Shown piece by piece: positions 36,420 through 49,125 of a DNA stretch of 64,000 nt. The stretch lies in the NCBI RefSeq assembly GCF_000092185.1, contig NC_014160.1:930001-994000 (forward strand). The letters run 5' to 3'. Within the stretch, counting starts at the first letter, position 1, and each line of letters opens with the position of its first letter. This DNA comes from Thermosphaera aggregans DSM 11486 (GTDB taxonomy: Archaea > Thermoproteota > Thermoprotei_A > Sulfolobales > Desulfurococcaceae). The notes under the pieces were generated by a model. It did no database searches. It saw only the letters and a list, made by a program, of their open reading frames with translations, and was not told the DNA's origin. A program made the position numbers and the translations under genes.

Positions 36420-37460
36420 TCAACGCTTGAAGAACCATGAAGTGTCGAAAGGCTTGGCCCTCCTAACCCCGCTTTCGAACAAGGCATGAGAGATTAATGG
36501 TAGGGCTATAGTGGCGTCGACGTAAACAGTCTTCTTCTTCGCTACGGGGGACACCTTTCCCCAGCTTACAGCCTCTTCGAGGGTTGCCCCGCTCAAGCCT
36601 CCCCATTGTGGAGCATCGGTTGTGAACTGTACAACGTATTCAAGGGACTTGTAGTAGTCGTGGACTCCTTCCTCATACTCTCCTATTAGTGTTTGCGCCA
36701 CAGTGACCAGGTTGACGTAGTCTTTTGGAACCCCTCCCCCAATATAAATAGATGAGAGCTTCCTGGACTGCCTCCCTATTTCAACAATATCGTTGAAATC
36801 CTTCACCATGTCTATTACAACCCTGTGCCCCTTCCTATAGGCTAGAAGCGTGGCCATTCCATAGGCGCTGTCGACGAGGGCTGGCGAGAACACTGGAACA
36901 CCAGCTCTATATGCGGCGGAGACAATGCAGTCTATGCCTTTCTCGTTGAGCCACTTGCCGAACTCGTGGAGGAATTCGGCGGTTGAGAACGGCTTTTCCG
37001 AGGGAAGTGTTTCAACGAACTCCTCTATCAACCTCTCCATCTTCCTATATTCTAGTTCGTTTGCAACAGTATCGTAGAACCTGTCGTACTTATGCCTCAA
37101 CAGTTTTTCATCATCTACTGTCGGCAGGGTTTTATAGTATTTAAACCCCATGGCTTCGAAAATGTCCTCGCTTATTATCGCTCCTGTTGAGACGACAACA
37201 TCGACATATCTCTCCTCTACAAGCCATTTCACAATCCTCCACATCCCGGCCGTGCTCATGGAACCGGCTAGTCCGAGAAATATCGTGTTATCGGGATCCC
37301 CGAACATTTCTAGCAAAACCTTGTACGCCTCTCCTAGAGCCCTTCCCTGGAAGGCCGTGTCAGCCATTGCCAAAAGTAGTTGATGTATGCTTCTTTTCTC
37401 AACATTTAAGGATTTAACCTCTCCAAGTATAAAGTTAAGCTCGTCAGGTAGGCTCTCCAT
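36420..37460 (-). CDS. dys: Deoxyhypusine synthase
   Basis: NAD-dependent transfer of aminobutyl from spermidine to a lysine of aIF5A. Markers are FLGLAGSMSTAGM, STGAIISEDIFEAMG, IYIGGGVPKDY, TTDAPQWGGLSGA and EAVSWGKVS with the catalytic lysine. About 346 residues, family length. Start ATG 37460 or TTG 37466. A C/D-box sRNA and tRNA-Pro lie upstream on the same strand. Confidence 0.95.
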   Translation of the reverse strand: MESLPDELNFILGEVKSLNVEKRSIHQLLLAMADTAFQGRALGEAYKVLLEMFGDPDNTIFLGLAGSMSTAGMWRIVKWLVEERYVDVVVSTGAIISEDIFEAMGFKYYKTLPTVDDEKLLRHKYDRFYDTVANELEYRKMERLIEEFVETLPSEKPFSTAEFLHEFGKWLNEKGIDCIVSAAYRAGVPVFSPALVDSAYGMATLLAYRKGHRVVIDMVKDFNDIVEIGRQSRKLSSIYIGGGVPKDYVNLVTVAQTLIGEYEEGVHDYYKSLEYVVQFTTDAPQWGGLSGATLEEAVSWGKVSPVAKKKTVYVDATIALPLISHALFESGVRRAKPFDTSWFFKR

Positions 37461-37515
37461 AGCCAATCCAGCTCAACCGAGAAAACCCTATGACATCCGA
37501 TTTTTTAAATATTGC

Positions 37516-37572
37516 CAGGTCAGACCGCTGAAAGATCATCACTCCTCAGTTTCTAGCGATTTCATCAAGGCT
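37516..37572 (-). ncRNA. C/D-box guide sRNA behind tRNA-Pro
   Basis: Minus strand from 37568: box C TTGATGA, 12-nt guide AATCGCTAGAAA, box D' CTGA, 3-nt spacer, box C' GTGATGA, 12-nt guide TCTTTCAGCGGT, box D CTGA (37520-37523). All four boxes and both spacings are canonical. The second guide is complementary to ACCGCTGAAAG, which I remember as a conserved archaeal 23S rRNA segment near the 3' end. The RNA starts about ten bases after the tRNA-Pro 3' end with no room for a separate promoter, so tRNA and sRNA are probably one transcript. Confidence 0.85.
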
Positions 37573-37577
37573 TTGAA

Positions 37578-37652
37578 TGGGGCCGCGGGGATTTGAACCC
37601 CGGGTCACGGGGGCCCAAGCCCCGCATCCTAGCCAGGCTAGACTACGGCCCC
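37578..37652 (-). tRNA. tRNA-Pro (TGG)
   Basis: Minus strand: acceptor GGGGCCG/CGGCCCC, anticodon stem CGGGG/CCCCG with loop CTTGGGC (anticodon TGG), T-arm CGGGGTTCAAATCCCCG, discriminator A. Intronless. A TTAAAAACTTAAAAA stretch (37682-37696) upstream is its likely box A. Confidence 0.95.
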
Positions 37653-37751
37653 TCTAACAATCATGATAATCCATGCCCTTATTAAAAACTTAAAAAGCAT
37701 CATTCCTCAGAGCCGGCTATAAGGGAGTCGGGGGATGGATTGTTGGAAAAA

Positions 37752-48840: not shown

Positions 48841-48929
48841 GGGCCCGTCGTCTAGCCTGGTTAGGACGCCGCCCTTACAAGCCAAGCTGGGAGAGGCGGA
48901 GGCCCGGGGTTCAAGTCCCCGCGGGCCCA
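48841..48929 (+). tRNA. tRNA-Val (TAC) with 14-nt intron
   Basis: Acceptor GGGCCCG/CGGGCCC, anticodon stem CCGCC/GGCGG, spliced loop CTTACAA (anticodon TAC), T-arm CGGGGTTCAAGTCCCCG, discriminator A. The anticodon loop is interrupted after position 37 by a 14-base intron at 48880-48893. The flanks form a bulge-helix-bulge: CTTA pairs with TGGG, with 3-nt bulges CAA and AGA. Confidence 0.92.
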
Positions 48930-49011
48930 TTAAAACCTTCCTTAATTGGCGGAATTGGTTAAGCGGTAAAAGTGGCACTGTTTGATAAAATAACACTCCA
49001 TGTGGAATGGA

Positions 49012-49096
49012 TCCCGCGGGGGGGAATTGAACCCCCGGCCACCCGGTGACTGTGGCCCCACTACAGCCGGGCGCTCTGCCGCTGAGCTACCGCGGG
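49012..49096 (-). tRNA. tRNA-Tyr (GTA) with 13-nt intron
   Basis: Minus strand: acceptor CCCGCGG/CCGCGGG with the C1-G72 pair typical of archaeal tyrosine tRNA, anticodon stem CCCGG/CCGGG, spliced loop CTGTAGA (anticodon GTA), T-arm GGGGGTTCAATTCCCCC, discriminator A. Intron at 49048-49060. Central helix CTGT/ACAG and bulges AGT and TCA give a canonical splice site at position 37/38. Confidence 0.94.
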
Positions 49097-49125
49097 ATCC
49101 ATTTTAAATTCTAGATTAAGGGCTT

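Follow-up and report, generated by a model that had tools for sequence, protein, structure and literature searches.

Layout of the sRNA locus

The window, which is the whole 64,000-nucleotide (nt) stretch of the Thermosphaera aggregans DSM 11486 chromosome analysed here, contains on its minus strand a C/D box sRNA in which UUGAUGA, a 12-nt guide, CUGA, GGA, GUGAUGA, a second 12-nt guide and CUGA follow one another. The 3′ limit of this element is set by the last base of box D, at position 37520 of the minus strand. It is preceded by a tRNA-Pro gene and followed by a deoxyhypusine synthase gene, both on the same strand; in their 5′ to 3′ order the features of the locus are as follows.

37679–37688, minus strand: TATA-like element TTTTTAATAA, 26–36 nt upstream of the tRNA 5′ end; G027 also has AAGTTTTTAATAAGG
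37578–37652, minus strand: tRNA-Pro(UGG), 75 nt, no intron (ARAGORN; Rfam RF00005, 60.9 bits); sequence identical in G027
37569–37577, minus strand: spacer of 9 nt from the tRNA discriminator base to box C; 5 of 9 positions in common with G027
37562–37568, minus strand: box C, TTGATGA; first base not R; identical in G027 and G028
37550–37561, minus strand: D′ guide, AATCGCTAGAAA; 8 pairs (6 Watson–Crick, 2 GU) with 23S rRNA 2017–2024
37546–37549, minus strand: box D′, CTGA, read from the sequence
37536–37542, minus strand: box C′, GTGATGA, read from the sequence
37524–37535, minus strand: D guide, TCTTTCAGCGGT; 11 Watson–Crick pairs with 23S rRNA 2898–2908, predicted N+5 target C2902
37520–37523, minus strand: box D, CTGA, read from the sequence and kept in homologues
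37501–37512, minus strand: TATA-like element ATATTTAAAAAA, starting 7 nt after box D; ACATTTAAAAAA in G027
36420–37466, minus strand: deoxyhypusine synthase gene (NCBIfam NF002006, 520.7 bits, cut-off 434), which follows the sRNA throughout the genus

Boxes C, D′, C′ and D stand in this order, GGA separates box D′ from box C′, and the guides fall within 10–12 nt. A preliminary description of the locus had presented this layout as free of a single deviation and as starting about ten bases past the tRNA-Pro 3′ end on the same strand. The order and spacing are exact and the distance measures 9 nt, but box C begins with T and not with the purine of the RTGATGA consensus; this T is common to both other members of the genus, G027 and G028. 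The description was also right that no promoter fits between the two genes, as the 9-nt spacer is too short for one. The same arrangement is kept in a second species, G027, where the sRNA again lies just 3′ of the tRNA, on the same strand and with no room for a promoter.

The C–D′–C′ core pattern matches once in the window and in none of 100 dinucleotide shuffles. Across the T. aggregans genome, searched as a single contig of 1,316,595 bases, it matches three times, versus zero matches for a reversed control pattern. The two further strict core matches lie at 89510–89544 on the plus strand (L015) and at 1093924–1093959 on the minus strand (L017) of the genome; their guides match rRNA imperfectly at best, the top match being 9 of 10 scored pairs for L017 at 23S position 415. 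When folded computationally by itself, the sRNA does not exceed shuffled sequences in stability (z 0.82), as expected for a K-turn RNA. Its best Rfam matches are archaeal C/D sRNA models, all below threshold: sR3, sR5, sR44 and snoPyro_CD resemble it in length and box layout and score 19.8–22.7 bits over nearly the entire sRNA, all under their gathering scores, which places it in none of these families.

Changing neighbours upstream of deoxyhypusine synthase

The sRNA adjoins the deoxyhypusine synthase gene in T. aggregans (G000), G027 and G028, and in G001 from another genus; these are the four with an upstream sRNA among the 23 deoxyhypusine synthase orthologues read (L165–L187). What stands before the sRNA differs among them. 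tRNA-Pro occupies this place in two of the three genus members, T. aggregans and G027. In G028, where tRNA-Pro is missing from the locus, the sRNA lies directly upstream of the synthase gene, and TATATAA, a TATA-like sequence, precedes box C by about 40 nt; in G001 the order is tRNA-Met(CAU), sRNA, deoxyhypusine synthase, with 25 nt between the tRNA and box C. Upstream of the remaining orthologues we found a same-strand tRNA-Met with no sRNA (9), a divergent tRNA-Pro (3) or neither (7).

Across the family, the slot upstream of deoxyhypusine synthase gathers tRNA genes, namely same-strand tRNA-Met in G001–G003 and seven genomes of genus g14, and tRNA-Pro in divergent orientation in G023, G025 and G026, three genomes of g13. 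ARAGORN named the tRNA before the G001, G002 and G034 genes tRNA-Ser(CGA); we rejected this call in favour of tRNA-Met(CAU), because the loop sequence is CTCATA and similar tRNAs at this place receive the call Met(cat). Seen from the tRNA side, tRNA-Pro loci were read in 30 of the 40 family genomes, two of them being the CGG isoacceptor, and the sRNA stands behind those of T. aggregans and G027, the tRNA-Pro of same-genus G028 having none. One loose C/D match behind a tRNA-Pro(CGG) (L103) was rejected for its poor boxes.

The synthase itself is 91% identical to that of T. aggregans in G027, 83% in G028 and 80% in G001. These values suggest that G028 probably branched off before T. aggregans and G027 separated, and hence that the tRNA-Pro junction, together with the drift of the D′ guide described below, probably arose on the stem shared by these two.

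Proposed expression from the tRNA transcript

The junction is best read as one transcript covering the tRNA and the sRNA, from which tRNA 3′ processing would release the sRNA. This reading is also the simplest: a TATA-like element stands before the tRNA and another before the downstream gene, and there is no promoter within the 9-nt spacer. The element at 37679–37688 is the probable promoter of the tRNA–sRNA dicistron, and ATATTTAAAAAA is the probable TATA box of the deoxyhypusine synthase gene. RNA polymerase would start at the tRNA promoter and transcribe tRNA-Pro and sRNA together, and RNase Z would cut after A37578, leaving an RNA with 9 nt ahead of box C; these 9 nt could be trimmed or tolerated, the protein-bound sRNA being trimmed to size. 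The genome has an RNase Z-like open reading frame, whose match to the family is split in two and below the family cut-off.

From box D to the next gene we found no clear T-rich terminator, so the transcript may run into that gene. The lack of a terminator-like T run there would also suit an alternative in which the sRNA is real but does not come from the tRNA transcript, having its own start in or behind the tRNA or being processed out of an RNA made chiefly for deoxyhypusine synthase. The TATA-like element before the sRNA of G028 points the same way, as does a passage of a review according to which C/D sRNA maturation in S. acidocaldarius survives changed flanks (PMC7994747). In T. aggregans, however, the spacer leaves no room for such a start and the 75 nt upstream of it are a G+C-rich tRNA, the TATA-like element of the downstream gene is kept in G027, and a long transcript from the tRNA start would still be a tRNA–sRNA transcript. 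We consider an origin outside the tRNA transcript unlikely.

Somewhat less likely again is a neighbourhood due to chance, with both kinds of gene gathering in the slot and the tRNA having no role in expression. tRNA genes do recur in the slot without the sRNA (tRNA-Met in G002, G003 and the seven g14 genomes, divergent tRNA-Pro in the three g13 genomes), and of the 43 distinct tRNA genes read in T. aggregans, tRNA-Pro(UGG) alone is followed by a C/D sRNA within 110 nt. Against this, the sRNA here lacks room for a promoter of its own, and G028, with no tRNA before its sRNA, has a TATA-like element instead. Expression from the tRNA-Pro promoter remains the reading we prefer.

Two observations concern other tRNA genes of T. 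aggregans. A loose C/D match in the 5′ flank of its tRNA-Leu(UAA) was left aside. Within the window, two closely spaced tRNA genes at 48841–48929 (plus strand) and 49008–49097 (minus strand) probably bear introns; in default mode ARAGORN detects only one of them and leaves it unnamed, and with introns allowed it reads them as Val and Tyr.

The D guide and its predicted 23S rRNA target

Against the 23S rRNA of T. aggregans itself (ACCGCUGAAAG), the D guide TCTTTCAGCGGT forms 11 of 11 contiguous Watson–Crick pairs from the base adjoining box D onwards, and the N+5 rule, which selects the fifth paired base, falls on C2902 (approximately E. coli C2745 in a MAFFT pair alignment). The D guide very probably directs a predicted 2′-O-methylation to this base: it would pair with 2898–2908, and fibrillarin, whose gene is present in the genome, would methylate C2902. 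The 23S segment that the preliminary description had assigned to the second guide is the correct one, and the C that it had named is the base chosen by the N+5 rule. It had further looked to the guides for an rRNA or tRNA match of at least 9 bp; the D guide provides 11 bp beside its box, and the D′ guide has no 9-bp match to any rRNA or tRNA of this genome.

The match stands out from its background. Among the 436 12-mers that precede CTGA in the window, the D guide alone has 11 contiguous Watson–Crick pairs with rRNA, and shuffled versions of it reached at least 11 pairs in 366 of 200,000 trials. Its runner-up site is 23S 2055–2065 (GCCGCUGAAGG, N+5 on C2059), with 9 Watson–Crick and 2 GU pairs, and the guide could also act there. 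That it works chiefly at this second site, so that both guides would serve one rRNA region, is improbable. The site does offer 11 pairs and lies 38 nt from the D′ site, and the guides of genus g4 end in a C that pairs with a G there, but all 11 pairs at 2898 are Watson–Crick and the U bases retained in the guide core CTTTCAGCGG give perfect pairing at 2898 only.

The preferred target, around C2902, is itself conserved, its segment being identical in 14 of the 15 genomes read. In the exception, G017, the rRNA differs at the target site, and among the 40 family genomes the D guide pattern was not found in G017 or in its genus-mate G018.

Drift of the D′ guide

In relatives, the D′ guide is approximately ACCGCCAGTG and pairs over up to 10 bp with CACUGGCGGU, placing N+5 on 23S U2018, a site that is identical in all 15 genomes read. 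We scored the 18 homologues with a full-length D′ guide on T. aggregans rRNA; for 15 of them U2018 is the best-scoring site in all of 16S and 23S rRNA (with some ties), and it ranks third in G027, fifth in T. aggregans and 87th in a distant homologue, L013. Because it forms 8 bp where the guides of relatives form up to 10, the T. aggregans D′ guide is, on this comparison, a drifted remnant of the U2018 guide, and it probably works weakly or not at all. Its best contiguous tRNA targets, the D-arms of tRNA-Gln(CUG) and tRNA-Gln(UUG), offer 7 Watson–Crick pairs and 1 GU pair here and 8 Watson–Crick pairs with the G027 guide, which is indistinguishable from the 8 bp at U2018; we rejected them in favour of U2018, to which the guides of relatives point.

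The two guides (37524–37561) are also nearly complementary to each other, forming 10 bp with one bulge in the computed fold of the sRNA, and L013 has 8 contiguous guide–guide pairs. Random drift equals the observed pairing energy in 1,111 of 20,000 trials for T. aggregans and in 293 of 20,000 for G027. Because drift reaches it this often, we did not accept the pairing as a selected feature and treat it as a curiosity that is suggestive only.

A joint reading would have the sRNA fixed upstream of deoxyhypusine synthase while its source of transcription switched between a TATA-like element (G028), tRNA-Met (G001) and tRNA-Pro (T. aggregans and G027), the tRNAs acting as plug-in promoters, and would have the drifted D′ arm of the tRNA-Pro lineage, no longer a guide and now similar to the rRNA target of the D guide, pair with the D guide as a latch or decoy. 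As a whole we regard this as unlikely. Its first half, the change of upstream partners, is well supported as gene order; the latch or decoy half is weak, as are its statistics.

Conservation of the sRNA

Allowing up to 3 mismatches, we found the D guide and its C′ and D boxes in 26 of the 40 family genomes and the reversed control pattern in 2 of 40, which marks the sRNA as a conserved gene. A stricter pattern, run on 398 genomes from across the phylum, hit 8, all of them from the same family. A scan of named genomes with the guide pattern returned 12 loci, of which we kept five, all from Desulfurococcaceae or Thermoprotei (two of these, L007 and L009, have the same sequence around the match); the other seven, five in bacteria and two in Methanobrevibacter, were discarded as chance, having no second box pair.

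In other genera the sRNA is located elsewhere; in g14 it lies near a tRNA-Ser gene, mostly divergently, and with the order of guides changed. There (L148, L151–L154) the D guide takes the first position, between C and D′, and its partner is replaced by a AAAGGCCGCGG form, an arrangement that we read as guide shuffling between sRNAs. In genera g4, g12 and g16 (L133–L138, L143, L144, L065 and L155), a C/D-like element in convergent orientation lies behind the homologous sRNA, and the guide of this element, approximately GGATCAACCGG, is complementary to the 16S rRNA 5′ end.

That the boxes are a chance match within an intergenic stretch is highly improbable: box C is off by one base, but the shuffles, the guide–rRNA match and the conservation across the family all speak against it. 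We put at roughly 80% the probability that a working C/D box guide sRNA gene lies here, 9 nt past tRNA-Pro(UGG), and that its RNA is transcribed from the tRNA promoter, released by RNase Z and directed by its D guide to C2902.

Comparison with known systems

A literature search for T. aggregans and sRNA returned a single match, which concerned split tRNAs. The locus gives this heat-loving archaeon a conserved guide RNA and a predicted site of ribosome methylation, neither of which was described for it in the literature searched. The part most worth attention is the swap of upstream partners among related species, a small natural experiment in which the same sRNA and the same downstream gene stand behind tRNA-Pro, tRNA-Met or a TATA-like element. 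A comparison of such species could reveal how a guide RNA outlasts the loss or exchange of its promoter, a question that the review cited above (PMC7994747) raises for the C/D sRNAs of archaea.

Dicistrons of a tRNA and a C/D sRNA have been described before in archaea, and in Thermoproteus tenax the tRNA of such a pair is tRNA-Pro. Excerpts of Randau 2012 (PMC3491384) describe tRNA-Val–sRNA8 and other tRNA–sRNA neighbours in N. equitans, with RNA-Seq, and a passage of Breuer 2021 (PMC7994747, citing Tripp 2017) lists tRNA-Ser in I. hospitalis, tRNA-Pro in T. tenax and tRNA-Val in N. equitans. Predicted methylation sites are tabulated for seven archaea in a section of Dennis 2015 (PMC4644070). 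The exact guide pattern had no match in any record named Thermoproteus in our named-genome scan.

The N. equitans, T. tenax and I. hospitalis dicistrons share with T. aggregans a C/D sRNA directly 3′ of the tRNA on the same strand. For the published cases, tRNA 3′ maturation is proposed to form the sRNA 5′ end, as we propose here; those cases rest on RNA-Seq or a review report, whereas the T. aggregans unit is known from sequence alone. Plants reportedly have dicistronic tRNA–snoRNA genes as well (work by Kruszka, 2003), with the tRNA first, then a C/D snoRNA, and release by RNase Z; they are transcribed by RNA polymerase III. The plant genes are eukaryotic and their likeness implies no common descent, but they have the same order as the T. 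aggregans unit and the same proposed mode of release.
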